Source: Nautilus pompilius (Eukaryota; Mollusca; Cephalopoda; Nautilida; Nautilidae). Taken from it: a stretch of 64,000 bases of DNA. The stretch covers positions 992,001-1,056,000 of the forward strand of contig JACATO010000039.1 of the NCBI GenBank assembly GCA_018389105.1. Direction: 5' to 3'. The notes below the pieces were generated by a model. It saw nothing but the letters and a program-made list of their open reading frames with translations. It had not been told where the DNA came from and made no database searches. Shown here piece by piece: positions 779 through 58,600 of this stretch (position 1 is its first letter; the number at the start of each line of letters is the position of its first letter). The position numbers were made by a program, and so were the translations under genes.

Positions 779-3700
779 TGGGAGAAACTGTTCTGTGTTG
801 AACTCAAAGTCATCAACAGGTACAGCAAGTTAAGGTGGTACAATTTTGCAACAGTAAGGAGAGAGAGAAATCTCCCACTCACTCACTAACCCCTTTCTCT
901 CATTCATATAAACACACACAGACACATCCTCTCAATCAGTAACACACTTCTCCCTGACATTCATATATATACACACACACACACAAGTATGCACAGGGAC
1001 ATTCTCCTATTCTTTCACACACCTCCCCCCTCTCTCTCTTCTGCCCCCTATTCTATCTCATTCACATACACACACACAAACAGACATATTCTCACTTTTC
1101 AAATGATAATTTTATATCAGATTTTTTCATAGGTTTCTAAGAAAAGCATAACTAACTAGCACATTAACAGGAAGGAATGCTTCAGCATATTCAGTCACAA
1201 GAGCAATAAGTGTTTAAAATTCATATAAAGCCACTTTGCCAAACATGGTTTAGGTAGATACACCATGATTATTAAAACAACAAACTTCTGAACTTTTTCT
1301 ACTTCTCTTATACTTATGATCTCTAGTTAAATCTGGTACTACTGCATAATCTATCAAACTTTATAAAATCCTTTGCAGTAGATCTTATAAAAATGTAAGT
1401 TATGTCACCAGGAAAACAGCTGGAGGTCAAATCAGGCAATCAGAGTCACTACATAAATGAAATCATGTACATTATTAACCATCCCAGTAAATCTTCTCAG
1501 GACTTTTAACAAGCTATCTATGTTCTTCTTACATAATGTGGACATCATGCCTAAACTGCATACTCCAAAAGGGGCATAAGTACAGATTTAATACAGCAGA
1601 ACTGCTAAAGTTTTACAAATGGCAGGGCTGTTGTGTTGTTTACACCAATCCCAACAATGGAAAAAGAGTGCAGTGCTGCAGTTGTCCACCAGGAAGTGTT
1701 GCTAAGCCTGTGCCATGCAGGGTCAGAGGAAATTCCTACTAGAACTCTTTCATAATGTGGGAAAAAACCTACATGAAAGGCCGAGCCAATTACCTGAGGG
1801 AAGTGAATTCAAGCCCTCAACTGTTCAGCGGTCAAACCAGCCAGCCACGATAGACTAAGTCAGTGGACACCAACTGGAAATCAAACACAGGACATTAGCC
1901 AGAAACTATAGGCTAGCAGAGCTTGCTTTTAGGAAACCATTATACCTTTGTCTAGCCATTAGTGACTGCTTGAAGCCTACATGCCATAGTGATTTTTCCT
2001 GTATAACAATTCTCTTCTGGCTCTCTCTGGTTCTGGTGTAAATTTGTTTTGATGAAAAATGAATGGTGTTTTCACTCATCCAGATAACTGTTTGGCTGTC
2101 AGGGGTCACACAACCACTGATGGCTGGAATCACAGAGACAACAGCATTTCTTCCACGAAAACTGAAACTCCATCAAGGTTCACTGGCATCTTTTTTTTTT
2201 TCTTCTAACCATCTGTAACTTCTCTCACAGTTGATGCAGCAAGCACAAACTATTTATAAAAAGGATATCAGACCTAAGGGTGTTAGCTGCTTCAAGGCGA
2301 ACAACCAGGTCTTCGCTCTCCTGCAACAAGGGTAAAACAGCTTCATAGAGAGTTGGCCGGAGGTTGACCGATAATTTCACCCCTATCCATTGACCAATCA
2401 ACCAGATTATACGGCGCCTTATGATGCGATAGCTAGAAGAAAACAAGCAAAAAAACATTCAAGTTGCCAACTATTAATGTTGCTGATGCAGGTTGATCCT
2501 GATCCAGGATCTTTTTTTTTTTTGAAAAAGAGTGCCATTATGTTGAAATGAATAAAAGAAAAGGATCTGAAATGCTTACTTAGTGTGTTTGTTTTTCAAC
2601 TCTTGAATTAGGTGTGTGCTAAACCAGTGGTCAAAGTCAATCTCGTCAAATAAGTCAAACGATGCAAGGCCAACAGCATTGTAGACTGCAAAGAAAAATT
2701 ACAGGGAAAAAATACTACTTGAGAACCTGCTAATGAGAGAAAAAAAAACATTTAGAGAGAACACATATAGAGAAAGGTGAAATGTGATTAAAGAGCTCCC
2801 ATTTTCCAAAAAAAATGCAATTCTATTAGGTCGTTACAAAGGTTTTGTCAGTTTTTATATTACGTTGATTTAGGGTTCATTTCTTGCATGCTTGTGAAGG
2901 TGTACGTAGATAAATTATACATAGTTTTGTAATGCAAGCTTTGGCAAACATTATGTAAAACCTACCTTTTTAAAAATTATAAAATGGTTATTTGTTCAGA
3001 GTTCTGAGTGGAGCAGGGATAGAAAAGTTTTTCGTGCCATTTTGCTTCACGAGTTCAAACCAGGCCACAAAGCGAGCACGGGGCGAGGACGCAGCAAATG
3101 AGCGTACAGTACAACGATGGTTTGAAAAGTTTTGATCAGGAGATGAGAGCCTCTGAGATAAGGAATGTAAAGACGCCCTTCCAGCTGTGATGACGACGTC
3201 TGAAAACCTCAGTTGAAGCCGATCCAAAAAAAACAGTGTGAGAAATTGCTGGAGAGCTTGATGTAAGCACTGGAACTGTTTCCCGGCATCTTGATGCAAT
3301 TGGCAAGGTGAAAAAGCTTGACAAGTGGGTCCTCATGAGTTGAATGAACAACAACAAAAGCACTGCTCTTCGCTTGTCACAAGAAACAAAACCATCACAG
3401 CTGAATGGTACTGTCATGAATCAAACATTCTTTGTTCATTAGAAACTCTCCCAACAACAGCCAGCATTGGTGAATCAAAGAGGCCCAATCCTGCTCCACT
3501 TGCTCATCCTCATGTTGCAAAAGTGACTCTTCGGAAACTGAATATGTTGGGGTACAAAGTTCTCCCTCACCCAGCCTATTCACCAGACCTTTCTCCCACA
3601 GACTACCACCTTTTCAAACACCTCGACAGCTTCCTCTGTATGAAATCCTTCTCCAAGCAAGCAGCAATTGAAACTGCCTTCCAACAGTTTATCAACTCTA

Positions 3701-6700
3701 GAAATCCATATTTTTTTCAAAATGGTATAAATGTGCTTGTAACTCGTTGGCAGAAGTGTATTGGTTGTAATGGGACTTTGATTAGTAAACTTCACATTCA
3801 GCAACGATATGAAGTCTCATTGTTGTGGTAGAAAAACCAACAAAACTTTTGTTACAACCTAACAGTTTGTTCTTAAAAATATTTAAACACACTGAGTCTG
3901 GTAAATCATTCAAGGCTGACATTACAGATTAAAGAAAAGACATTTCCTGTATAAATAAAATTATTATTTTGATTTTATGATTTTTAGAGGCATACAAAAT
4001 GCCAGTATATTAAGAAAATCCCTCTTCAACTCTGCATTCCTTAGTTGACAAATTTTTGATTACCATAATTTCAGCTCCAAAATGGCTACAGAACAAATTT
4101 AAGCTTCTCTGGCCAGACCTGAAATACTGTATGCATCACCATCTATGCAAGTAAACTTTCTAAAATACCTAAAAAAATATGTCCTTCGATTTAATTAGCA
4201 TAAGCTAACACAAGTAATATTTTTCTCATTGAAGCTTAAACCACATTATAAGTGTAGCCACTAAACGGGTTTTGTCTATGACTAATCTGCACTCTGCTTA
4301 GAAGGTGTGTGAAACTTAAGCCACTTCAACTGGTAACCAACCCAACACAAGCTGTCACAACAAAAAGTTGCCCAACCATTTATTTATTTATTTATTTTTT
4401 TAAATTGCTAGCCCTGGTCATGAACTACTTAACTCACCAAGCCACCTGCACACTGTAAGAGCAATAGGTGCTAAGTTAACATTATTGCACTCCAAAACAG
4501 CCCTGATGATGGCAACAGGGGAAGATTTCCAAAATTTAGCTGTTAATATATACTAGTGTACTGTAGTTACTATAGTTGATAGAATTGATGATGTGACCTG
4601 CACCTGCATCTTTACGAAGCAGTGTGGACATGTCTTCCAGACTACATGGTCCTTGTACGTTATGTACCATCTCCAGCAGCACTGGTGTTAGAATGGAACG
4701 GAATTCCTTGAACAGAGCCAGGAAGAACACTTCTGTACATGGCTAAAAGAATAAAGAATGTTTGTCAGAACTCTTTTTTAGAGAGAACCCTAATCCTAAA
4801 TCATGTAGTATAGCTTTTGACCATCAGTCTTTCTGCACTTTTGGAAAGAAGTGACATCTGGTGGAATCTATTAAAAAGCTGATACTCCCACCACCTACCC
4901 ACATTAGGAAGTGTTTAACACAAAAAACTATACATAAAAATGTACTGTAGGGTTTATTTTCCAGACAACTTAACCAGAGAAGAACAAAGTTTTTAAAGAG
5001 ACTTAACTTGTGGATTGTTTACTTACTGATGTAAAACAAATGATGGTAGTAACAGGTGGTGTACACCTCAGAGATGAAATTGTTTTGCAGTTTTATTTAC
5101 AAGTTTAAAAAATTAAATATTGAAGCAATACCATTTAAAAGAGGAATAATGTCTTTAAAAACAAACAAACAAAATTATCAATAAGATAACTGCAAAAAAA
5201 GAAACGTTTAACTGTCAAATATGATGTAAAAAATCATCAAGAGCTTTCAAATTTAACTGCTAGCCAGTTTTAATTATCAAAAGTTAAACACATCAGGCGA
5301 TGTTATAAACAAACTTAGAAATTAAGCATCATCTGCATGTTTCTTAATTTTAGTTTTTCTATCACTCCCAAAACTATGTATCCAAACTTAAAAATTTTAG
5401 TGAAATTGAAAGGATGAATGGAAGATTGATTGTAAAAGAGAGAGAGAGAAAGAGAGAGAGATGGAAAGAGATTAAATTTGTATGGTAGAGAAACAGATTT
5501 AATCTTCTATAAAGTAAGATACACACTAAGTGTGGACATACCCTGAGAGAAAACTTGTAGGAATCTCCACCTTCATCCTGACCTGAAATAGAAAACAGAC
5601 TGAGTGAGGGGTGGTCTGTTTGGGGCTTTGCACAGCAAGACAAACATTAGCAGGGAAAATCCACTCACAGAAGCACTCTGGGTCAGACTCCCACGTCTGG
5701 AGATCATCAGAAGAGAGCAGGAAATAATGGGACACCAGATGCTGGCAGATCTGTGTCAGTGTGTTGTACGTGAAAAATTCCATCCTCATTTTATGAGCTT
5801 CAACAAGAGCAGAGTTAACCTTATCTGGAAAAAAAAATCCAGCAAAAATAAAGATGAATTAACATTAAAGAGAGTTAAATAAAATTCTGAGCCAAGAATT
5901 GCTCAAAGTACTGAGAAATAACAATAATTTCTTAAGAAAGAATGAAAGTATTTATTACAACCATCAGAGAAAGTGATTCAAAAGTACAATGAGCAGTGAC
6001 CTAGAAATGTCAAAGCCAACAGTTATATCAAACAACACAAAACCTAATAGGACTTCAGGGACATTTAAATGAAACCCAGCTGAAATAGCATTGATGTAAT
6101 GGTATCCAACCAAGTTTCTCCTGGATGTCTCTAATATACACAGTACAACCATGAAATCTAGGACCTTACTGTTCTGAAGAGAGTTCTAAAGAGATTTACA
6201 GAATGGTGCATGTGAACTTGGATAAGAAGGTCCTGAAGGCTTTGTTCCACAAGTTTTCCAACAGCCACTTTAAGAAAGATGTCATCACAAAGGATTTCAG
6301 ATTTTTTCTAGCAAAGTGTGTCAATCTCATTAGGTTTTTTTTAACATCTGCAGCTTGCCAAATGTCACTAGGACAAAATAATACAAAATATTTGATTCAG
6401 TACTGGATAATGTTTTTCTAGTAACAATAACTTCCCAATCCATGTGTAAAACCTTACCAAGTCCTGTGGTCACTTTCTACTGTTTCATGCATGCAAGTTG
6501 TTTAAACAGGTTGTGGTTTGATTTAAGTTTCCTTCACAACAAATAAATAGCCCCTAAAATTATAACAAGAACCACTAGAGTTATCCCATCTATCAGTCAA
6601 TTCTAGCGGATGTGAAATGTTTTTCTTACCTTTCCCTGATTCTGGAACTTTGTACGTTTCACAGTGAAGAATTTCCTTCATAAGGTTAAGACAATTGACA

Positions 6701-9700
6701 GTGAACCTTTGAAAGAGAATACCTGAAATTTAAACAGACAAGTAGTGACTACATAAGAATACCCATCCAGAACTCAAAATCTTAATTTCTTTATTTCAGA
6801 AGAGATCTGCATATAACTTGGTGTGTGCCATTTAAGCAGCCAACAAATCAAAAACCACAAGGTATTATTCTCCTGAGTCACGCTGTCGCCATGATAATAA
6901 TGGCCAACTTGGATTTTGGGGTGGATACTTGTAGCAATTCATAATTCTATGAGAAAATAATTAATTCAGACATCATCTGGTGGTGTCAATTTTAAGGATG
7001 CAAGACTCCTACTGCATTCCCTCCAGAATCAATATCATTTGATATTACCACAAAAGAAATGATTCTAAATATCTCAAATGGCTCTGTCAAAATTTGTTGA
7101 AATTTAGTTGGACTTATTGCATAATTGATGATTTTAGATATGGAAAATGACTTTGGAAAAATTGGCTAAGGAATTTTTTCGCATTAAACTATTTCAAAAT
7201 CAAAAATCAGCTAAAAAATTTGTTTTCACTTTTCTATGCCATTATTTGTTCTGATCCCCCCATATCTACCAAAGTTACATTTACAGAAGTAATAATTTAT
7301 AATAGTAAGATAAAGTCAGGCAAATAGCTTTACATATTATGTACCATACAAATTATACTGTAGGTAGAGGGATATTATCTATGGTATATAGGGTATGTTA
7401 TACATTGTGTAAACCATAAAATCTTGTTTTTCATCTAATTTCTTCTAAAATACCAGATTAATTTGAGTAGCAAAGAAAGAAACCATCACTCACCATGACC
7501 CATCTCCATGAAGTTGTAGCGAGCCACAAAATTAAGTGTGGTAGGAATAAACTGGATATAAGACAATGGATGTGCTTCCAGGGCATCCAGCAGCTGAAAG
7601 GTAAGCAAAGAGTAGTTATTTCAAGCTACATGTTGTGGTTTGCTGTTCTCAGAATAACACAAAGTCAGCACCAGATGCCAAGTGGGTCTCTAAACATCTG
7701 AAAAATCAACAGCTTTTGTTTGTGCCATGCAAAAGTGAAATTACCTGTCTGCTGGTGAGCACTGAAAGCTTTCATAAATTTCAAAAGAAATTAATAAGAT
7801 ATCTTTACAAATTTTTTAAGAAAAAGAATGAAGTAACTCTTTGGTTACAGTCATGTGAACACAATGCTGATAGACTGATTGTTTTTAATGGTGATAACTA
7901 ACTTACTATCAGTCTAAGTTAGCAGCTATGACTGCTGCTACTTGAGAGATATTGTCCACAACACTGCTTAACAGAAATGGCTCCAATACTAAAATAAATT
8001 TTTGTTAACCTATAATAAATTTCAAAGGCAATCTCAGCCATTTTAAATGTTCAATGCTTTGCCACCTGTAGCTCTTCTGTGAAAAGACCACAAACAGCTG
8101 CATGAGTTGTATGTAGTAGCTCTGATGTTGCTATTTTTATTCACTACAAGAGGTCAAAGCACAATGTTATTTGTGATAAGCTGTTTCAGCACAGAAGCTG
8201 AAACAGAAGTAGATGTGCGTGTATACACATATATATGACTACAGTGCTCTGTCACCAGGTGGGTTACTTTTAGTTTTCGATTAGCAGTTAACAGTCAAAT
8301 CTGTTTAAAAATACGTGCTCACAGACACAAAGCAAACATCTACATGAATAGAAAGAAATCCAAATGAACTGACCACTTTTGTCATGAGCAATATGAACTT
8401 TTCACATCTGTCCAACATCCTGTGATTGCCCCACATACTTCTTCCTGAAAGACAAAAGTTGAAGACTAATAAAGCATTTACAAAGAGAAAGAAAGATGTT
8501 ACTGTTGCCCTGCTGACTTTCTATGAACGGTGTTTTACTGACTGGCTTTTGTTTTCTACTTTTAATCTGTTGAGGAGCAGGTTTTCAAGATACCTGCCTG
8601 GCCTATAAAAAGTGAGTTTTGGAAAAAATTTCAGAAATCACTTTAATCGTGACATTTCTTCACTTTTAAACCACATACAGACTTCCTTCCTCCAGCCTGT
8701 GGAGCCAGGGAAACATATATTGAAAATTTACTCTGTCAGAATTTCTACCCAGTCCCCGTAAATATATAGGCATGCCCTTCAAAGAGTTGAAATGGCACCA
8801 GAAAATTCAGTTGTCTATATTTGCTTTCTTTAGAAATATAAAAAAAAATAATTTTAAAAATTCCAACAATTAAGTGTCTCAAGACGCCATCATCCTCCTG
8901 TCACTAAAAACAAGTGTAACAAGCTTGATGGGAACATCAGCAGTTTTAACAAATCAATGTAAACAACAAAAAAGGGGTCTCAAAGAAATACTCTGCATCT
9001 TAATCAGGAACATCTATACAACTTATGAAGATCCATGTCAAAAATAAACAAAGGAATTAAAATAAAGTACAAACTTACTACACTCTAAAAGTGTTTCCAG
9101 TCTTTGAAAGATGATGTTCAGGAATGTGATGGCTTGAGCATCCAGGTGAGGGTCACGGTATCCAAATGTGACCAGCTTCCTTAGAACTAAGAAAGCAAAC
9201 AAAGTATTTAATATACATAAGTAAATAAATCAATTTCAAGATGTTTTTGTTGTTTATATGCAATCTACCATTACAGAACCATGGTGAAAATGAAATCTTT
9301 GAGCCAATCTGATAGAGAGCAATCAGTGATTCTACTATGCTATGCATCATTCCAAATGTACATGAAAATCCAGACAGTCTCATGATTGCCTAACTATAGC
9401 TTGAATTTTGAATGAAAATAAAACACTTGTAGGTCTTCTAAACACAGAGCTTCTAGTAAAATTGTATCTGGTTCATGAAAAACTACCACAACAAAAACTA
9501 CTGGTTGCAGACTAATCCAGAGAAATAAACATTCAATCTTTTGAATCTGTTTGCTTTGTTAATTCTGAATAAACTATTATGCAATGAGAAGATAAGCATT
9601 CTGACTTTCAAGGATTAGTGAGAAAGGATAAATCATTTCTTTTTGATTTTATTCAATTCTGTTCCAAACCCAAAGAATACATTTAACCCTCTGTAAATTT

Positions 9701-12700
9701 TAAGAACAAACAAACAAAAATTAAAATGTAAATTAAAATTCTAAGATCAGACCTTAAATCTTATATTATTATACTCAATGTTGAAAATGTAATCTGACCA
9801 CATGCCATTATGACAACTGCTATTTCAGCCAGTTTTCATTTGAATACCTCTGCCTCTCTGGATAACTTTATTTTTGTCACTTAGACCAAGTATGTCAAAC
9901 TCATTAGTGCATCAGGGCCACATTGAGACAATACATATTTCAAGAGAACATTTTTTTTTAAAATCCAAGTTGTCTAATAAATAATTTTAAAGCTGTTGGG
10001 CATTCAAAAACTCTGAATTTGAGGTAAAGGTAAAGAAAAGTGGATGGGTTTTGAGTTTTATTTTTTTTTTTAAATTACAATTTAATTAATATTTTTAACA
10101 TCTTTAATTAACATATTAACCTGTCACTCAGATGTTTTTCCAGAAACTTGACACTTTTTCCTTGTACTTAGCTGATAGACCTATCAGGTTCTAGTTCTTG
10201 TGCCGATACCACTTTTGTCCATTAATTGAGAGCTCTCCGGAATCTTGTTTCTTTTCATGAGTGACAAAAGTTGCTTGCACACTTATGTATTGCCAGACAT
10301 TGCATCAAACAAGTGGGACCATCTTTGAAAGGCTTTTATGCTGTCACACACAGACATAACTAATTTCTTTCTCCCTTGAAGTTGTATGTTCAACTCATTT
10401 AGGTGGCTTGTGATATCAACTAAAAATGCCAGATCTCAAATACATTTAATACTTTTATCTCAGCAACATCTTTTATTTCCAGGAATATGATGGTTTTTTC
10501 TCAAATCACAAAAACTGTTCATCACCATGACAACCAGCAAACTTCTGTATAATGTGGAAAATCTTCATACTCAATTTCCACATCAAGAAAGGAAGCAAAC
10601 TGCATATGATTTAACCCTCAGGCACATATAAAATTGACAATTGATGCTACTTGTTTTAAAACATGGTTTAGCTTAATTATTTTACCACACAATACTTCCT
10701 GGTTAATTATGCACTGGAAATTGCAAATTCCCCCCCTCCCACATTCTTCATTTTCCTACAAAACCATTCTTGACACCAATCATTGCAGGAACACCATCAA
10801 TTACTACACAGATTAATATTTTTCCAGTATTTTCTCTAACTGACAGAAAATGTCTGCACCAGTAGTAGTGCCATGCACCGGAATTAGTTCCATAAGTTCT
10901 TCTGTAACAACAAAATTTGAGTTACAACAACAAACAAATACTGCAAGCTGAGCAACAACTTTTATGTCTGTGCATTCATCAACAGCTATCAAGGTCGCTT
11001 GAAACTCTTCACTAATAGCACTTAGTTGATCTCTCAAGTTATTTGCAATGTCATTTACATTTTTCAGCCCATGTGTTCCAAGTGAGACTTATGTTTTTAA
11101 AATCTCTCACTTTATCAGGGCACATAATCTTGGTGAATAAACTGGCCTTTTGTGAAAGGTTTTGAGTGTGATGCATTTAAATGGGACAATAAATAGCTGG
11201 CTTTCACTTATTTTATTAAATGTCTAAAACATTGTTTAGCTCAGTTTAAATGCCCTAAACATCCCTGAAAATTTTTCATACCCTTCTTTGTGAGCTTCAT
11301 AATGGTGTCTAATAGTATACTCTTTACAAACATTGATTGTTTTTGAAACTGAGACACACGATATTACTGTTACTTTGAGTGGCAAAGTATTGCTCCTCCC
11401 ACTTGGCTTGAAACACATGACCCTCTTCCCGTTCTTAGTGCTTTCTACTTGAAGACAGCTCTGAGAAAGTCATTTTTAGGGGCTACGAAATAGTTGCAAG
11501 AGCTAATTAAAGGGCACAGCCACATTGCATTAAAACTAGCTTCTGTCTGAGACCTACTAAGTTTAGTTTAGTTTAAATTATAGTTTAGTCACATGTGCTT
11601 GTTCTATTTTACACACTGCAACTTAGTTCATGTGAAGGAATAAAAGATCAAATCCAGTAACAGAGACACTACTGCAGTAGTGTCTACAGACAGACATGAC
11701 TGGCTTTTAGAGTGTAGACAAGGTACAGGCCCACCAGTTTGATGTGTCTGATTTGGACATTAAAATCACCAAATGATTCGGTCTATAAACAAACTGGCAT
11801 ATCCCAACTGCTTTGTGTGTATCTCTATTGAGAATCTCATCGTAAAAAATTAAAATTTAATTAAAAAATAACAAACATAGGACCTTTAAGAGCAAGAATG
11901 CTGCGGTCCAGTGACACCACCATCGAGGATGCATGCTGTGAAGCCAAGTTTAGAAATGTGTCCAGCTGAGTGTTCCACAGGTTCAGCATAAAACTGAACA
12001 GATTTTCAGTGATCTGCAAATGAGAAAAAGTAATAACTGACAACAAAAAAGTGAGGATAAAAGGAAAAGGAAAAAAAAAAAAAAAACTTTATGTCATGTC
12101 ATTGTTGGGTTATCCTTTAGACTGATGAAAAAACGCCAGATGTTTCTTTACTGCAGAGAGACTGGTATAAGCTGTGATGGCTCCTGCCTGTTTCTAAGAG
12201 AAACCAAACCTCAAAGCCAATTTAAAATAGTCTGCAATTAAATAGAAAGGCATGTTTGAGACGATGTCCTGTGAAGAAAACTACAGATCCTGTGTGCATT
12301 AAATATAGGACATATTTCATACGAGAAATTTATTTTATAATAAATAAGTTGTCTTATGACAGCTGTACATATGGCTGAAGAATAAGTTGTTTAAGAGAAT
12401 CAAAATATGATTTAATATTAAAATTAAAGTCCCAGCCATCCTCATTTCTTTTATTATTTTCTAATTCATACATTTTACGTAGATTATACATTTTATATGT
12501 GAAAATGCTGCTATACTTTGGTGTGGCTTTTTTTTTCTTTTCTATTACTGTTTGTTACTGTAGATCATAACTTGTTAAATCCACAAGTTTGTTTATCTAT
12601 CTTCTTCTTTATTTTGTATGCAATAATTTGATTTATTATTTAACTTTGTAAAATTTTCCCTTTGTTTGGACTTATGGCTCCTTATTTTCTTCCTTCCTTC

Positions 12701-15700
12701 TTTGCTTGAAAGACAATATGAAGATTATCAATCCCAAATTGTTTTCAACACTGAAATCCAACAAAAATCTAATTTTAAAAAAGAAAAAAGTCATATTTAG
12801 AAGAAATGAAAATAAACAAACCTACAAAACCTAAACCTAGAAGCTTCTCAAGTCATTTTCAGTTGAGAACAAATTAGAAATAAATGAGCTGACTGAATAC
12901 TTTTATGAAACTAAAATTTTGAAATATCATCAGAAGAAGAAAGCTGATTATGAGTGAATTATACTAAATTATAGAAGAGCTGGATAACTTTCTACTTATA
13001 CAGAGCACCTGCTATTTCTTCAAAGCATTTATCAAGTGGCAATTTTTTAATGTATTGTGTTACATGTAACAACTACATGAGGTGCACCATTCCTCTATGT
13101 TCATCATTGTACATGATGCTCATAAAATTTTCAACTGTGAACCCTTTGTAGTTTCTTTACTTTTGAAAATTTCTAATGTCTCAATTAGAACAGTCTAGAA
13201 AGATGAGTTTTTACTAATCGCAAAGAAAACACCACCAAGATCCTTTGTTTCCTGAACCATTCATTTGCACACCTTCTAAACAGTATTTATTCCTAATGAA
13301 GTAAGAATATCAAGCCTGGACTATATAGTTTAGATGAGATGGAACCAAACAGTATGTAAAACAGATAACTACAGCCAAAGTGCACACATCTCATAAATTT
13401 AAAAAAAAGAAAAACATACTTCTTCGAACAACTTTCTGTCAGCCATCAGCCTCTTTGATGCAAGAGCTTTGATCACGTGATAGAGAGTCAACAAGACACG
13501 ATCTTGTAGCAAAGTATCCTCGCACCTGACCACCTGCAGTAGGGTAGGAATCAACTCTGGCCAGCTCCGTGGACAATCCATACGAGCAATCTTGGCAATG
13601 AGTACGGCAAGCTGGGTAGCTACCTGAAAACAATTCACACAGCAAGGGAGGAATGTGAATGGGGTAGGCTAAACTGAAACCACAAGTCTTTGTTTGGTTT
13701 TAAGGCTCTGGAATTAAACACAGCATTGCAGTTAAATGAATGTGGCAAGAAGTGTGTGGAAACGTTTTGTCAGAATGATTCTGATGTTGTTGGAACTGCA
13801 TGTTGTAAACATCCTGCTGATGCTAAAATTCCTTTTTTCCCTCCTGACATCTTCTAGTTAGTTTAAAGGCCAAGGTAACTAGACTATACATACAGCATTC
13901 ACCAAGTTCACTTAACTTGCAGCCATTATCATAGCATTTGCCAATCAAATCTTGAGAGTGGCAACACCACATTTCAAAAATTTTATCCTGAATTTTTTCC
14001 ATTTACCCTACTGTTCAAAACTGGATAATTAAATTTGAAAGACTTTTACTTATTTGAATATAAAAATATCATGCAAAAGTACACATGCCTTTTTAAGCTA
14101 AAATTTCATCAGTGAAAACAAGTTGTTGTACACTTCATATAAATTTAAAAATAGTTTAGTTGAAAATGTGCTTCCATCATGGTTCAGATACCAGAAAAAC
14201 AACAAAAAACAAACAGCATTTCTTACCTGAGGAACTGGTTCATTAAAGTTGGATATGAGTCGCTTTTTCAAGATATTTTTTTCCTCTTCAGCAATTGCAC
14301 TATAAGAAAAGCAAGCAACGTCACAAATGCATTGGGTTTTATTTACTTGCTGTAAAATGGTAATGCATGAACCATGACAGACAAACCTGTACTTGTGGGG
14401 GAGTTGTTTATTATCAATTCCTGAGGCAATAAGGAAACAATAACATAAGTATAAATATTTATGTAATGGCAAGAACCAGCCAGAGAATAATAATATTTAA
14501 AAAGTTACTTTCAATTTTACTTAATTTGGAGAAATATATATTTTATGTCTTACAATGCAAATAAATTTGATCTTATGAGACCACAGTACTTCAATGTAAT
14601 TCTCTTAATTTAATATTCTCTATACAAAAGCATTTGTCAAGCTGCCTGAGAATACTTTTGTTTGAAATGAGAAGAGGCAATTCATCATATAGAAAGATGT
14701 GTAGCTGTAGTTGATTATATTAAAGTACTGATGTGATTTACTTCCACATTGAAGTCTGAGGTAATAGAGAGAGAGAAGGCAATGAGAGGCACTTACTTTG
14801 GAGCTGATCGCCGCCAGTAACGGTCAATGCCATTCTTGAAGTACAAGACTGCCAACCATCTCACATTAATGTCAATCTCATGGTTGCAAAATATTGTCTG
14901 AAAAAAAAAATGATAATAGAATTTATTACTAAGGGGATGAGAATTGTTAGTCTTCTAAAACTATAGCATGTCTTCTGTTAGCCTCTCTCCAAGACAACCA
15001 GTTTTAAGAGACAGGTATCAGTATAAAATAATAATAAATCCACATATATACATACTGAGGGAGAGAGAATTATTTTTTTAAGTTAATAGTGGCAATCAAA
15101 GAATAAACAAATTATTTTTTCAAAACAGACACTAGAACATTATACTTTCTGCTAAAAGTTGTTCAGTAGCATCCAGCAATAAAAATGTCTAACTGGTTCA
15201 TGCCTGAAATAATAATTTATATATTGTAAATTTTTTAAAATAAGTTCAGGTTTCCACCTTGTCTTTCATCCAATCATGGCAAGAAAAAACTCAAGACTCA
15301 AATTAAAAAAAAAAAAGATAATCACAAACATTTTTTGAAAGTGCAAAGAAACACCCTCTCCTTTAGACAATTTCAGATGAATCACATTTTTTTCAAAAAG
15401 TTATTTTTGTATCAAGAACCCATGATTTTATTCAACTAATTAGATTTCAACATTTCAACCAAGAATACACTTTGCAGACACTCAAAATAAAATACTAACA
15501 ATTCTTTTGGTTTCAAAAAGCATAATAAAATTTTATTTATCACAGTCAATGTGGAAAAAGTAACACAACCATGGTCAATATTGGTACACAACCAGATCTC
15601 CTGCTAAAAGTTTCAGTGTCATTTCTCAGTTTAGGAGGTCAAATGTACACACATATATGCATAATGATTATCACTAAGACACCATGGCAATAACGCTTGC

Positions 15701-16198
15701 ACTTATCAGAACAGCGTCAATTTGTATTCACATATTCAACAAATGCTTGTGAAAAAATTGTTGTAAAACAAAACTTCCCAGATAACATTTATTATTAGCT
15801 TTATGTTGTTTTTAAAATTAAGTATCATATCCAGTTTTCCAAGGTTTGAGTTTCAAAACCTAAATCCAGGAGATAGCAGGTCAAAAACTTCCAGAAAGAA
15901 ACCTAATCATTACCAACTTAGTGGCACTAATATTAATTAGATGGTATCAGTTACCTTCTTTCAGTATTACGTTAAAAAACAGGCAGATTTGTATGTTTCT
16001 GGTAAAACCATTCCCTGATTGAACAATGTCGCTAACGATGTGCTGATGTTAACAACTCACCGACAAAATGCTGTAGAAGCCAGGCTTCGCCTCCCATTCT
16101 TTGAGCTGTGTCACAGCTGGTTTCAAAACGTCTGCATTTTGGTTACACGCCTTGGTCAGGGTTTCCAGCACAACGGGACCAGCAGTGGACAGATCCAT
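779..16198 (-). CDS. IPO11: Importin-11, 5' 15 coding exons (3' end off window)
   Basis: Importin-beta family nuclear import receptor; human IPO11 (about 975 aa) binds RanGTP and imports cargo such as ubiquitin-charged E2 enzymes. Exons on the minus strand: 16061-16198, 14797-14897, 14227-14299, 13420-13623, 11884-12013, 9079-9186, 8374-8444, 7494-7593, 6630-6722, 5669-5824, 5542-5582, 4604-4742, 2580-2685, 2269-2432, 779-819. All phases join without a frameshift to 555 codons. The start MDLSTAGPVVLETLTKAC and the motifs WLAVLYFKNGIDRYWRR, LIPTLLQVV, YHVIKALASKRLMADRK, LVSHYFLL, LTPVLLEMV and RRRIIWLIGQWIGVKL match IPO11. The importin-beta N-terminal domain lies in exons 1-3, with HEAT-like helices after it. 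Exon 5 has a weak donor (gtccta) and exon 12 an ambiguous one. Intron 14 is U12-type. The remaining C-terminal exons should lie left of position 1. Confidence 0.95.
820..2268 (-). other. U12-type AT-AC intron (IPO11 intron 14)
   Basis: The donor directly after exon base 2269 reads ATATCCTTTT on the minus strand (from 2268), which matches the U12 AT-AC 5' splice consensus. The acceptor ends in AC at 821-820. It is preceded by CCTTAAC (835-829), the U12 branch-site consensus, about 10 nt upstream. Joining at AT...AC makes an Ala codon split G/CT and gives TLRSAVDDFEF, collinear with human IPO11 TLKLTVDDFEF. No AG lies close enough upstream of the downstream exon to act as a U2 acceptor, and TAA blocks the frame just upstream. 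Confidence 0.88.
1750..1905 (-). repeat. SINE-like element, copy A
   Basis: Read on the minus strand, this contains a B-box-like GTTTGATTTC, then a GC-richer body, and ends in CATGTAGG followed by TTTTTTCCCACAT. The same order (GTTTGATTCC, then CATGTGGGTTTCCTCCCAT) occurs on the plus strand near 23.45-23.55 kb, so the two are probably copies of one tRNA-derived SINE family. The boundaries are approximate and no clean target-site duplication was found. Confidence 0.4.
2829..3859 (+). mobile_element. Degraded mariner transposon with TIRs and TA duplication
   Basis: The terminal inverted repeats match: GGTCGTTACAAAGGTTTTGT at the left (from 2829) and, on the minus strand, GGTTGTAACAAAAGTTTTGT at the right (ending 3859). 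TA flanks the element at 2827-2828 and 3860-3861. Inside is a mariner-type transposase read on the plus strand, broken by stops and frameshifts. Recognisable pieces are the N-terminal HTH region (about 3020-3290) and the C-terminal catalytic part (about 3490-3830), which includes the PAYSPDLSPTDYHLF signature. At 1,031 bp it is shorter than a typical 1.3 kb mariner, so it has internal deletions. It lies in IPO11 intron 12 and is inactive. Confidence 0.85.
9886..11460 (-). mobile_element. Decayed hAT transposon (ZBED/GTF2IRD2-like)
   Basis: Read on the minus strand, fragments of one transposase appear in order. A BED-finger-like N-terminus lies at about 11236-11418 (VCKEYTIRHHYEAH). The middle region at 10813-11037 contains AVDECTDIKVVAQLAVF. 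A following part at about 10200-10450 contains DITSHLNELNIQLQGRKKL. These match the hAT lineage that gave rise to vertebrate ZBED5, EPM2AIP1 and GTF2IRD2. The left end (about 9890-9935, ATGTCAAACTCATTAG) resembles the usual end of such elements. Frameshifts and stops break the reading frame. The right end is undefined. It sits in IPO11 intron 5. Confidence 0.7.
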
Positions 16199-17504: not shown

Positions 17505-32669
<15,165 letters not shown>

Positions 32670-39400: not shown

Positions 39401-42400
39401 TATACAAAAGCAGACAGAACCATTCTCTTTTTTTCTTCACCAGAAATTGATTATATCCAAGGGTTACAACTGCGATTCTCTCTTAGTGAGATTTTTATTT
39501 CAATCAGTGGCAAAAAAATTCATTAGAAACACAACAAAACTTTAAAAATAATCTGTAAGACAAATAATTCACCGCATCACTTCAGTTCATTCCTGAACAA
39601 TGCTAAACGAAAATTCTTGCACCCATAACACCACTGCTAGCAGTAAATATTTCATCCATGCACACAGCGTGTTCGCTGTGTGGAAACTGGTCAGAGGATC
39701 AGTCATTTTTATTAAATACTAGTGCATTGTGTGGCTTAAATTGAAGTGATTGTCAAAAAATTTCAAAATATTTAAATGAAAAAGTCTTTGAGAACCCATT
39801 GGACAGATCAGTGAAGTCCAGAGAATTTGCATTTGTAGAAGTTTTCACTATACCTTCATATCCTTGAACAGGCTTTGGGCCATGGCAGTAATGTGCTGAT
39901 AGTCCTGTTGGAATTGTGCAAATTTAATGATTTAAACAAAAAGATATAGATATGTTGTCAGATAGGCATAGTCATGCTTATACACTCTGCTGCTTCTATC
40001 TAATTTGGAAAAATATTCCAAGCAGATACTACACAACTAGTGAAGAAACACTTTCAAATGTCTACTTGTGTTTCTTATTTATACAAAGGATTCATAGTAA
40101 CAGGTATAAACAAATGTTAGTAAATGTTTCTTTCCAGAAGAATTTTAAAAACTTTAACCGTGTTATTCCTTGCTTCTCATTTGTTTTTTTTTTTTAAGTT
40201 ACATGCTTAATTTTTAGTACAATCAGGAACAATATCGTCAATAAAAATGAAAAAAAAACCCAAAACTTCTAAAGTGTTTTCAACAAACAAGTTGCTTTCT
40301 TTCAGAAAATATCTTTGATCAAATGTTATGAAAAAAAAACTTCATTTCCGCATTGCCAACAAAGCACCATAAAATTAATGAGAGTTGAGAGTAACATCAC
40401 TGACCTTGCATTTGCTGTCAGCTGTTGGATCATAATCATAGAGTAATGCTATAAGTGTCCTGAAAACTTCTGGTTTTTCAAAATAATTATCTTTGATGAT
40501 GTTTAATAGAGCTTGAAGTGGAGCTATGTCAAGCTTGTTTACTGTTTTCAAATCTGAAAAAGAACTGCTGTTAATTAATAAATTCACTTGCAGTAAAGAA
40601 TATCCATGCTACTCACTAACACTACTACAATTTGCCAAACTTTCAACATTTTGTTTGCTTAGTTGAAAGTGCTCTGTTTTTCAGTGCAAGCAGACCATCA
40701 ACATTCTCTGTGTGAAGACTATGCACAAAGGTAATGGCTGCTGACTGTAGGTCGTAGTTAAGTACAAGTGGTAAAAATAGTTGTAGAGAATATAGACAAC
40801 TGCTTCATCGTGTTATGCATTTGAAGGTTGGTTCAGTAAAAGCAGTGGTGGGATTCAGCCAGTTCGCACCAGTTCTTGGAATTTCATGAGTTCCACGAAC
40901 TGGTTGTTAGCCCTTAACTTATTTTATAATCAAAATATAAGGCATGAATCCAATTATTCTTGCTACATATTGCATGATTCATCTTGGTTTTAGAAATATC
41001 TATGGTAACTTTCTACGGCTACAGAAAATAGATAAAACATCCCTTATTAGTAAGTGAAATATTCTATAATTATGCACAGCCACTAGTGGACCTGAGGGGG
41101 GGCTCCGTTAGTTTTCGAATATGAAATGAAAAATAAATGAAAAAGTCAAATTTTTGCAACATAATCAATGGTCGGCTGCTTTCTACAGGCCATTTCAAAT
41201 GAGTTTATCATCTGCTAATTATATTTAGCATTGGTTTGCTGCAGAAAATCTGTTAGTATATCCGATACTTTTGAGCATATTGGACTTTTAAAGCACTTAG
41301 AGCTAAAACAGTTGATTTAGTATTTTAAAACATACAGTATTTTTTTAATTTTCAAAAATACAAAGTTTTATTATTTTAAAAGTTACAGTATTTTTTATGC
41401 TGAACAATGGAGAAAATTAGTTTTGAGCTTGTAATTTGACATTGTATCTGCTGGTTCAACATTGCAGATTGAGCAGTTCTTGCGTGATAAACTGTAAGAA
41501 ATTATTAATTCTTATAATTTCAAGACTTTAAATGTTAAAAAGTATTGTGTTATGTAATTACGTGAACTGGTGAACACTACCAGTTATACTTACAAATGTT
41601 TTCATTACCCGCATTATAGTACTAGGCCATTAGGCCGCTTCTAGTCTAGGCCATTAATAATAATTTTTTTAGATATTCATTTTTGCACATTTAATTTGTA
41701 ATTCCTACTCCTATTACAAGAGGTATCTAAAATAATATTTGTTAGATATGTTTGTAGATGTTTTTATGCTACTACCTTCTGATTATGAAAATTATTCTCG
41801 TAATTACCATTGAATAAAAACACTGTATTTTACATTGTGCAGTGAAAATATTGTAGCAATCCTAGTACCTAGTGAAGCAATTTTTTTTACATTTCAGACT
41901 TCAGCCCTTAAAATGAAGCGGCAACAAAATATACTAGAGTTCATGCGAAAAATCCCAAGAACTGAAAGTTCAAAGGAAGAGGCCAGTGAAGACGTAACAG
42001 TAACACAGCCATCTTTGATGAATGATACTGATGAAACTTCTGCTTCTGATACTGTGCTACCTACAGATGAGGCAGATGCCGCATCATCTCTTCCATTCTG
42101 CTGGAGTATGAAGCAATATGAGGAGTTCCAAAAAAATATGATGGATTGATTGTTCGTAGCAAGAAACTTGGTTGTGATCACTGTGCCAAATTTGATTCCT
42201 TAAACATGAAGGGAATACACGTGTCAATTGAATGGGGAAGCTGCAGTGTTGAAGCCTCAAGGAAGGATAAAACCATCCAGCAAGTATCTCTCAGGAAAAA
42301 AATGAAAGAGCATTTTTCATCAAAGGCACATATTGTTTGTGTAAAGCAACTACAGGATCATGCAGATGATGCAATTACAAAATGCATTGATAAAACGAAC

Positions 42401-45400
42401 CAGAAACATTTTGCCTCTACATGCAGAGTTTTCAATACAGTCTACAGTTTAGCAAAAAGAAGTAGGCCATTTTCTGATGTTGAAGATGAGATTGAGCTTC
42501 AAATAAAAAATGGATTTGACATGGGTGTTGGACTTCATTCTCGCAAAACTGCTGTGAAAATAGTTGATCACATTGCAAAGGAGATAATAAATGAAATATT
42601 TACCAAAATTATTGAACAAAATTTAGAAATCTGTGTCATCGTGTGATGAAGCTTCAACCATATCTAGTAAGCCTGTTGTTATAATTTTTTTTGAAGATTG
42701 AAGATTGTGATCTATCACCAACAATTTTCTTTGATTTGGTCGAATTGGAAGGACAGGGAGCACAAACAATATACGCATCTTTGTTAAAGAGTTTGGTGGA
42801 TTTGATAATGAATATTTGAGAAATAATTTGATTGCTTTCTGTTCAGATGGGGCAAGTGTAATGCTTGGCCGCAATTCTGGGGTAGGCATTAGACTTAAAA
42901 ATGATTTTCCTAACATTGTCATTGGCATTGTTTAAATCATCATTTTCAACTTGTTTTGGACGATTCTGTGAATGATATAAAACAAGTGAATCACTTCAAA
43001 ATATTCATGGATAAAATCTACACAATCTTTCACCAATCAAACAAAAACCAAATTCAACTCTTCAAAATTTCAGAAGAACTTGGACAACAAATTCTGAAGA
43101 TAGGTAGAGTTCTGGGACCAAGATGGGCTGCTTGCAGTCTAAGATCTGCACTTGCTGTGTGGCGTGCTTATCCAGCATTGTACAAATATTTCTCTAGTGA
43201 GACAAAACATTCAGGGATAGATGCTCGTCTTTGCAACAAGCATTTCTTGGATGATTTGGAACTGATGATAGATATACTGCAAGAAATTTCCTTACTTTCT
43301 AATGCCCTTCAAGCTAGAAGTTTAACTTTGCCAAGAGTTGAAAAACTAATAAAAAGGTCCATTAAGGCATTTGAAATGCTCAAAGAAAGTAAGGGAACCT
43401 TTGAAAAGGAAATTGATGTCAGAGTTGCTTCAGATGCCTTTAAGGATATTCAGTTCGTTGAAAACAACAAAGTTGTTAGCCTTCCTCGTCAAAAGCTACT
43501 GGAGGCAGTGGTATAAAATATGAAAAACAGGTTGATGGACTGTGATCATTTAACATCAAAGAACAATGAACAAGAAAATGACAACAAAATTCATGAACTG
43601 ATAAACTTGCTTGAGCCAAATTCGTGGAACATTGAGGAAGTTGTTGTACCCTGGAAAGCTTCAGAAGAAAATCTGAGTGAATTCAGTGAAGTTTTCCATC
43701 ATGAAATCAGCATTAATGATTTCCGTGACTATATGGAAAATGTCCTACAAAATTCCCACAACCCTGCGATTCCTCAAAGTGTACAAAAGGCTAAAAATAT
43801 TGTCCTATTGCTGTCAGTTCTGGAGAGGCAGAAAGAGGTTTTTCAAGAATGAATATTATATATTCAGATAAAAGAAGCCGCCTTACAGTTGAGAATGTAG
43901 CAAACCTTATGACAATTAATCTGATTGGCCTCCCATTGGACTCATGGGATGCCACTCCTTCGGTCAAAACATGGCTTAGAAAAAACCACTCTGCTGATGA
44001 CAACAGGGTCAAACAAAAGAAAGCTAAAGACATTGATGACAATCAAGTGGCTATTTGGAAATTTTTAAAGTGAAAGATTACAAATGTTAAATTAATAAAA
44101 GACTCAGGTAAAGAATTTTTGTTATTATTTTTTTGCCAAAATGGTAACATTCAATGGAAATGCAGCAAACACTATAGTATTTTTATTTTTACCTAGCTCA
44201 GAAAACTGAAGAATACATAAAATCATAAAATTTATAAACAGTAATATGTATAATTAATAATAATAGTAATAATAATTCAAAAAGCACAAACAATCAAACA
44301 TGTATATACATAGATGTATCTTCGTATTACTTAGTTCATTAACTATATAGTCTAATATAGAGTCTCTTCGATGTTATTATAGTGATGCTTTAACCATTGT
44401 TTAGACATTTTTTTAATTTGGGAAATAATTATAATTAATAATTTGATTTGCTAAACTGTAGAACGCGGCAGGCCGGCAGCCCAAAGATCAACCTTTGGAC
44501 CTATATCGGGCCAAACTGACAACATGCTTTTTGTGAGAGAACCGGTTGTTAAAATATTTGAATCCCACCACTGAGTAAAAGGTTATTTTAATTATCTTCA
44601 CAATATCTGAGAATCATTCTAATTTTGTACATTGTAAATTCTGTGAGTTAGTTAATTTCATTTATTTTTATTTAAGGCTTATTTTAAGTGCCCCAGGAGC
44701 ATGCAGCCCTTACTATTTAACAAAGTAATCAAGTGCCTTTCTAAAGGATTTTTTTTGTATTCTTCCATTAACTACTGAGTGTTATTAAATAAACTATCGA
44801 AATAAAACACTTTCTTTCATTTTGAACTCTAGTTTAATTTGAGTTCTAGTTTTTTTATTATTAAAATATATATATCTTTTTGGATTCTTATTTTTGATAT
44901 AAATCAATAAAACAATAAATGGCCCAGTTTTCATGATCTTCCACCATCACTAAATGAAGTGGTATTTACTGTAATTCATTACAAAATAAGAAAAAGGTAA
45001 AAGATTGTCAGAATGCCTTTAGATCAACCATAATTCATTGATATATCCATCTGTATAAACATGTTCATTTAATGAAAATTTTCATTTTAGTCCTTTCTTT
45101 ATCACACTTAGAAGCTGGACTCATTAAAATTACTCCTGCTAAGTCACATCAAATTCCAGTGATTGCTCAGAAAAGCATTAACATTCTACCACAAATAATA
45201 ATGATCTTCCTTTGTAACTTAAGATGTCCATTTACATAATACAGGTAAACACCTGGGTGTGTGAATTTTTTTACAGTGAAGAGCTGCTGCAACCACACTT
45301 TTAGGAAGTGTGACCCGTTGTCAAGGAATATTTGAGAAGACCAGAAAACTGCAGAACTTTTAACCCAGATAGCAATCTGCCAATCAGCTAACAACCAGGT

Positions 45401-55479: not shown

Positions 55480-55562
55480 TTCTGTCTCTCTTTCTGTCTC
55501 TCTCTCTGTAATAACGTCATGTCTCTCTCTGTAATGACGTCATGTCTCTCTCTGTAATGAAC

Positions 55563-55610
<48 letters not shown>

Positions 55611-58600
55611 TCCCTCTCTCTCTCCTCAGACAGTGGAGCCTGCAATCCTAGGTGGCGCCGACACAGAAGCAAGTGCTACAAAATCATGAATGAAGATGCC
55701 AACCACACAAAATCAATTGACCAATGCCAAAAGATGCAAGCCAGCCTAGTGTACGTCTTTGATACAGATACTGCGAACTTTCTATCCAGAATCTTGCGCC
55801 TCAACAAAATTGAGAATGCTTGGGTTGGCAGCAAGAGTGTGGTACGTTCATTCACTCTTAACAATTTGCGCTAAGATGATTTGAGCCACTCGCTGACATA
55901 ACGACTTCTAAATAATACATCTTGTTTGTTTCCTTCGTGCAGCCATTTACCTTCTTCTTTCCATAAACAAAGTTTGATGTCTAAGCTGAAATGTGGATTA
56001 TAAAAACAAGAATTGCAGTTATAATGAAGCGCAGTAAATGAATTAACTAACTTACATTTGCCGTTTCATTTCTAAGTAAAGAATAGCGATCTACTTTGCT
56101 CCGTGCATTCTGCGCGCTATTATATACAATAAGATTTATCGGGCGAAACTGTCAATAAATTAAGAATGTCTCTCACGTTCACAGAATTTTAAAAAAAAAA
56201 GGGAATTAACCTTTTGTATGAAAATTTCGAAGTTAAATCCATTCTAAAACTTCAACACGAAGTCCAAGTCATTTTTGACTTAGTAATAATTAAATATCGG
56301 TTGACTGAAAACATCCATGTAAAGCGAGTCAGGGTTTGTTGCCGTTGGTCACGTGAAGCGACGTCACAGTCTCGTATATTTGGATCTAATGCAGAGAAAG
56401 GTGCATGTAAAAACAAAAATACTGAAAAGAGGAATATTTTCAGATAATGATTTTTTTTTTTTTTTAAATGACAGTTTTGCTCATTTTTCGGCATCAAAGT
56501 TAAGCACAGATTCTGTTTATGTTCGTAAAAAAAAAAAAAAAATACAGACGTCTCGGTTTAAGAGTGACCAAGATTAGCAGCAGACTTCACGCTGTATCTC
56601 GGTGGAAATGGCTCAAGACAAATGCGTCGTATTTCGGTTATTTACAGGACAGCAAGTGGACATGGAGCAACTGTAAACTGGTTGAACAGATGGGAAATGG
56701 GTCCGAGTTTGAAGGTAAAACTTAGTTTGAGATTTGCGGAGAACGATGCTCACCTCTGCTAGGGTGATACCACCGACAACTTCTTTCTCTGTCATCCTAG
56801 GCTGCCTTTCCATAAACGCTAACAGCAGCTTTCTGGTACCAAAGACGTGTTCTTCCCTCATGCCGTACATCTGCCAGATGGATTCCTTTGGTAAGCTCGT
56901 TGAAATTTTACGTTTTAAGAAATAACTTTTAAGTTTGGGGCACACATGAGCTCTGGTGTTCTTCTTAACTTCGGCATAGGCGCTGAGGCTGGAATGTGTA
57001 CAGACCAAAGAGCGGCGGCTGGTCATCTACCAATAACTCACATCTGTCACCATTAGTTTTGAAATGATCCTAACCCTCCCTTCCATCTTTCTTATCTATT
57101 TAATGATTATTAATCTAAAATAATTCAATTCTGAGATCAAATTACCTAATTTATGTAAAAATCAACAGAATTATTCCTTTTTAAAGACCACTCTTTTTTC
57201 CCTTAGATTCTAGCTGAGCAATTTTTCAGACGATTTCGGTTTGTCACGAATAAATTTCCGCCTGAGAATATTAAATATTTAATCCCTTAATTTTATTGTA
57301 AAATAATGCGCGCGCCTTTGTAAAAAAAACACACAAGCAATTCCTTGCCCCCGTAATTCTATAAAGAGAAATAATAATAATAATTATATAGAATTTACAT
57401 GCCATGTTTTGTGGTACAGTGCTTTTCAAAAGTTAAATAATAAACAAAAAAAAAAAGAAAAATATTTCAAAATGGCTAAAGTTTTATTCACTAAATATGT
57501 AACAACTTTTTTTTCTTCCAAAGAAATATGTAAATAAGTTCCAGTTGGACAATTTTAATTATCCCTGGTATAAAGAAAAGATAAAGACTAGCTTTAGCTG
57601 ATGGCAATTTTGGCTCTAGAACATCTGTTTGGAAGGTCAACGTTACCAGTTGGTAGCCATTTTTCGCTTGGAAGCTTCTCTAAGATAGAGAACTGCTGGT
57701 TGGATGGAGTCGGAAACAGTCAGAGGCCAGAACGGCGGAATGGCTAAACGTGAATATAGGTGTGGCTTTTCGGCTATGGAATTGCATGGAGACCAGTTCA
57801 AGGCCGACTACGGGTCACCACCCCCCCCAGCGGATAATCGCTACATGTACCGATCCAACTCGGCTCTCATCTCTCTGCGGCTTACGGAGAAGTTGGTAGC
57901 AGGCTTAAGAATTCGCAGGAGAACGCATGAAAGAGGGCTCTAAGCTAGACGTGTGTGTATCCACTTGAACTGGCGCGGTGAACATGTTAGATTTAGCTTT
58001 CAATGTGACCTATGCGCACTCACCTGAAGGGAACGTGCAACACAGATCCAATTGGGGATAATTTCATTTTAATGTACGATAATGTTCGTCCACACAACGC
58101 ACTTGTTGTAATCGGTCAACACACTCAAGACCAAATCACCACTCGTATTATACGACCTGTGCGTTTTCCTGAGCTAAATTCTATTGAGAATGTTTGCGAT
58201 GCTCTAGGAAGATGTGTTGATTTCCTCCAAACCTTCTCCAACACTCCAAAAACTGCAAACTTTTCCAAGACAGGAGACGTTATTCTTGTTAATATAGGGA
58301 TAAGCAGCACGCAAAGCCACTGCGAATCATATATTGGCATCAGGAAAGGGAGGAAACCACACCTCCTGCTGACCGCTTCGTTTATATTCTTTATGCTAGA
58401 ATTCCTTCCTTTGTCCTGCTTGTTTCCCCTCTTACATCTCAAAAATTTATTTGTAATTTACAAATTTATTTGACAAATGCCCCTGTTACATGAAGAAGAG
58501 TTTGTGAGGAAACATTTGGTGAATTAGACTTAAACCATTTTTAAAATATTATCTTCGTTCTTGTTTGTTACCCACCTTTTAGAATCCAGTGTATAATATA

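Follow-up and report, generated by a model that had tools for sequence, protein, structure and literature searches.

A predicted U12-type AT-AC intron in an importin-11 gene of Nautilus pompilius

Near the left end of the 64,000-nucleotide stretch of Nautilus pompilius DNA analysed here (the window), two exons of an importin-11-like gene on the minus strand are separated by 1449 nt that begin with AT and end with AC, raising the question of whether these ends are the real splice sites and which spliceosome would use them. Exons were located with the human importin-11 protein, and the joints of the window introns were placed by hand. The gene, with exons 1–15 and 14 introns in the window, occupies 779..16198 (minus strand), begins with an ATG at 16198 and extends beyond the left edge. 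Its spliced exons 1–15 (16198..779) comprised 1665 nt, or 555 codons without a stop. When the spliced protein was compared with yeast KAP120 (PDB 6fvb), residues 10–555 were aligned (E 1.7e-64) and the alignment ran ungapped through the exon 14/15 joint, importin-9 being the next-best match (E 6.2e-10), and exons 13–15 alone gave E 4.5e-9 against KAP120. The importin-beta N-terminal domain (PF03810) was found in the spliced protein with E 1.3e-16; exons 13–15 alone gave two Pfam families, each below its own cut-off. Its sequence places the predicted product in the importin-11/KAP120 branch. The identity (IPO11) and strand that a first, sequence-only reading had assigned to the gene held up. 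About 8.5 kb more of importin-11 lies to the left of the window, with exons reaching the C-terminal part; one exon there, which falls between human residues 722 and 746, could not be placed. In two non-animal collections no relative of exons 12–15 was encoded among the pattern matches (20 and 9 in viral_contigs, 188 and 143 in genome_contigs).

Several other features were seen in the window. Exons resembling the zinc transporter ZnT5/SLC30A5, again with a human protein as locator, lie at 19258..32609 on the plus strand, head to head with importin-11. Within importin-11 intron 12, at about 2990..3850, there is a putative mariner-like transposase remnant (ORF 3322..3831, plus strand), for which Pfam gave no match at 1e-3. 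At 41814..44073 (plus strand) ORFs in several frames look like those of a hAT/ZBED-type transposase, and two pieces of them had no Pfam match at 1e-3. A fragment at 55515..55871 (plus strand) that matches the C-type lectin family PF00059 with E 1.9e-4, its 22.6 bits just equalling the cut-off of 22.6, adjoins a long CT-rich repetitive stretch. The donor of importin-11 intron 5, at 11883 on the minus strand, is weak, reading AAG|GTCCTATG and matching the major consensus at 4/8 positions.

The AT-AC intron, intron 14, occupies 820..2268 on the minus strand in phase 1; it starts ATATCCTTTTT and ends CCACCTTAACTTGCTGTAC. Exon 14 (2269..2432, minus strand) ends ...VVRLEAANTLRS plus one base of the next codon, and exon 15 (779..819, minus strand) reads ...VDDFEFNTEQFLP, with a GT donor next to it at 778, so that 2269 joined to 819 reads ...VVRLEAANTLRSAVDDFEFNTEQFLP. 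The 5′ splice site, ATATCCTTTT, makes up the first ten bases of the intron (2259..2268) and matches TATCCTT at +2 to +8 in 7/7 positions, as the U12-type donor pattern [AG]TATCCTT demands. The branch site, ACCTTAAC, at 829..836, matches TCCTTAAC at 7/8 positions close to the 3′ end, as in U12-type introns, the mismatch being an A before CCTTAAC where the consensus has T. The intron closes with the terminal AC at 820..821, and AT-AC is one of the two pairs of termini, with GT-AG, that U12-type introns carry. From the branch site to the 3′ end we counted 10 nt past the second A, or 11 nt past the first. The optimum for U12-type introns is given as 11–13 nt in a review (PMC3584512), and the spacing here is at or just below its short edge, according to the A that is counted. 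U12-type introns lack a distinct polypyrimidine tract; here pyrimidines made up 9/14 of the bases before the acceptor, a share not clearly below the 8–12/14 of the 13 other introns of the window.

At this intron, donors from 2330 to 2201 were combined with acceptors from 900 to 783 and each joint was scored against the corresponding segment of KAP120. Among 1727 frame-keeping, stop-free joints, 42 had spliceosomal ends (13 AT-AC, 11 GT-AC, 7 AT-AG, 6 GC-AG and 5 GT-AG), and the AT-AC joint 2269/819 had the highest score of all 1727, at 66. With spliceosomal ends, the next joint scored 44; pairing the same donor with an AC that lies nine bases upstream gave 42, and no GT-AG joint exceeded 20. 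Nine joints adjoining 2269/819, with other ends, scored 63–65, indicating that the protein places the joint within a few bases and that the splice signals give the exact base. These results agree with the earlier claims that donor, branch site about 10 nt before the acceptor and terminal AC all point to one intron, and that reading frame and collinearity with IPO11 require this joint.

A control enumeration was run on the importin-11 introns downstream, in which GT-AG, GC-AG and AT-AC joints were scored against human importin-11. GT-AG ranked first in all nine introns tested (a tenth exon pair was left out because its exon was not located), showing that a similar enumeration does not favour AT-AC. 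In the last of them an AT-AC joint lacking a U12 donor scored 53 against 57 for GT-AG, and AT-AC ends by themselves are therefore weak evidence. What separates intron 14 is the full donor together with the branch site: the 13 other introns of the window fit GT-AG with joints placed by hand, and their donors match the U12 motif at 1–5/7 positions and their branches at 4–6/8. Taken alone, the U12 motifs are no more frequent in the window than chance would give; six U12-type donors were observed against 4.8 expected from 40 first-order Markov simulations of the window, and 47 branch-like sites against 57.4. On the minus strand a full donor was found at 0.053% of 5669 AT dinucleotides, and a branch site matching at 7/8 positions or better and lying 8–16 nt before the end at 0.43% of 3487 AC dinucleotides, giving a frequency product of 2.3e-6. 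The weight lies in the protein placing the joint onto the motifs, not in the motifs themselves.

The sequence-only reading had pointed to U11, U12, U4atac and U6atac snRNAs in the genome as a check on its proposal. When the genome (727.6 Mb in 2558 contigs, with the window on contig C39) was searched with Rfam, all four were present, each as one match above its cut-off: U12 at 121.5 bits (cut-off 53), U6atac at 107.3 bits (cut-off 33), U11 at 83.3 bits (cut-off 39) and U4atac at 60.8 bits (cut-off 53), the last with a margin of only 7.8 bits. Rescanning the four loci against all of Rfam recovered U12, U6atac, U11 and U4atac. The absence of matches from 14 control genomes in each of the snRNA searches carries little weight, and an Rfam scan of the window gave no family at the gathering score. 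We found that bases 2–7 of U11 can pair with CCTTTT at +5 to +10 of intron 14, a run of six, the longest run with U11 bases 1–12 among the 13 other introns of the window being four. U6atac bases 11–16 can pair with TCCTTT at +4 to +9, and GTAAGG at positions 18–23 of the genome's U12 is complementary to CCTT-(A)-AC of the branch site with one A bulged. Such pairing follows largely from the consensus and adds consistency, not independent proof.

One competitor is a GT-AG intron with other boundaries, and the AT donor does have a GT shortly before it, within a few bases (AG|GTCTGA). The GT-AG joint was nevertheless rejected: its best version scored 20 against 66 for AT-AC, and acceptors farther downstream lose VDDFE, where KAP120 has VDDWN. 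The earlier claim that no usable AG precedes exon 15 holds in this sense, that AGs exist upstream, but the frame of VDDFEF runs into a TAA within the branch site, which puts VDDFEF out of reach of any exon starting at one of those AGs. An overlooked exon with GT-AG sites inside 820..2268, which the sequence-only reading had named as a finding that would overturn it, was sought as well. Six short open stretches between YAG and GTRAG lie within the intron, but a pattern search of its three frames gave no VDD- or DDF-like replacement, and with the best GT-AG joint at 20 the missed exon was not borne out. It is very improbable that either arrangement is used instead.

An AT-AC intron might also be handled by the major spliceosome, since U2-type AT-AC introns exist, as in some sodium channel genes (PMC2831892). 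According to the same paper, those of sodium channels carry G at +5, and AT-AC introns change to the U2 type less often than GT-AG introns do. Intron 14, by contrast, carries C at +5 in a donor that fits the U12 motif throughout, with a U12-like branch site close to its 3′ end, and we see next to no chance that it is of the U2 type. Nor did we find any point in favour of a decayed or misassembled gene copy whose AT-AC ends are accidental. Such a copy would hardly keep 555 codons in 15 exons with no stop and an alignment to KAP120 over residues 10–555, with further exons (one not located) that extend some 8.5 kb past the window's left edge into the C-terminal part, and the motifs' chance product of 2.3e-6 likewise argues against it, making this origin exceedingly improbable.

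Intron 14 is thus almost certainly a phase 1, U12-class AT-AC spliceosomal intron of an animal importin-11, predicted to be spliced by the minor spliceosome; the class and joint first proposed for 820..2268 are supported by the 7/7 donor, the 7/8 branch site and the score of 66. In U12-type splicing (see PMC3584512), donor and branch site are recognised by U11/U12, U6atac takes the place of U11, and exon joining follows. On the pattern of this known class, U11 would pair with CCUUUU of the donor and U12 with CCUUAAC of the branch site, U6atac would next displace U11 at UCCUUU of the donor, and the minor spliceosome would link ...TLRS to AVDDFEF.... Because no protein-keeping joint is available to the major spliceosome, minor splicing should be needed to make full-length importin-11 mRNA, and from known AT-AC introns we infer that importin-11 expression would depend on the minor spliceosome.

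The intron offers a clean, protein-anchored AT-AC example in an animal genome with all four minor snRNAs. It is of use for annotation, as a gene finder confined to GT-AG would break importin-11 at this point, and it can serve as an age marker for the minor introns of importin genes; alone, it settles no open question. Our literature search, outside which lay supplements and the gene lists of minor-intron databases, found no paper linking IPO11 with U12 splicing, and an importin-11 minor intron may well be listed already in supplements or databases. PMC9372748 mentions IPO11 and a minor intron, unrelated to each other; PMC6419433 has a minor-intron term, no IPO11, and importin passages that are not about a minor intron. 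It is a tentative and rather doubtful suggestion that importin-11 hosts an AT-AC minor intron not found described, ancestral to animals or gained in the lineage, through which minor-spliceosome activity might gate cargo import in that lineage.

Minor introns are widespread among animals and AT-AC minor introns have long been known (PMC10639083). AT-AC introns make up 26% of U12-type introns in human and 8.3–47% in those four invertebrates of a table in PMC7367187 that have U12-type introns. As a protein, the only level at which KAP120 was compared, the product resembles the importin-11/KAP120 family (PDB 6fvb) over residues 10–555 with E 1.7e-64. The AT-AC introns of PHB2, STX6 and KCMF1, among other Drosophila genes described in PMC2831892, share the class and termini of intron 14 but lie in different host genes, and IPO, Ranbp11 and CG33139 are absent from the main text of that paper. 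Set against U12-type AT-AC introns in general, intron 14 is alike in its donor ATATCCTTT, its branch CCTTAAC, its AC end, its short branch-to-end spacing and the minor snRNAs of its genome, and unlike in nothing of substance, differing by one base of the branch consensus and a spacing at the short edge; it represents a known intron class in well-formed shape, not a new kind.
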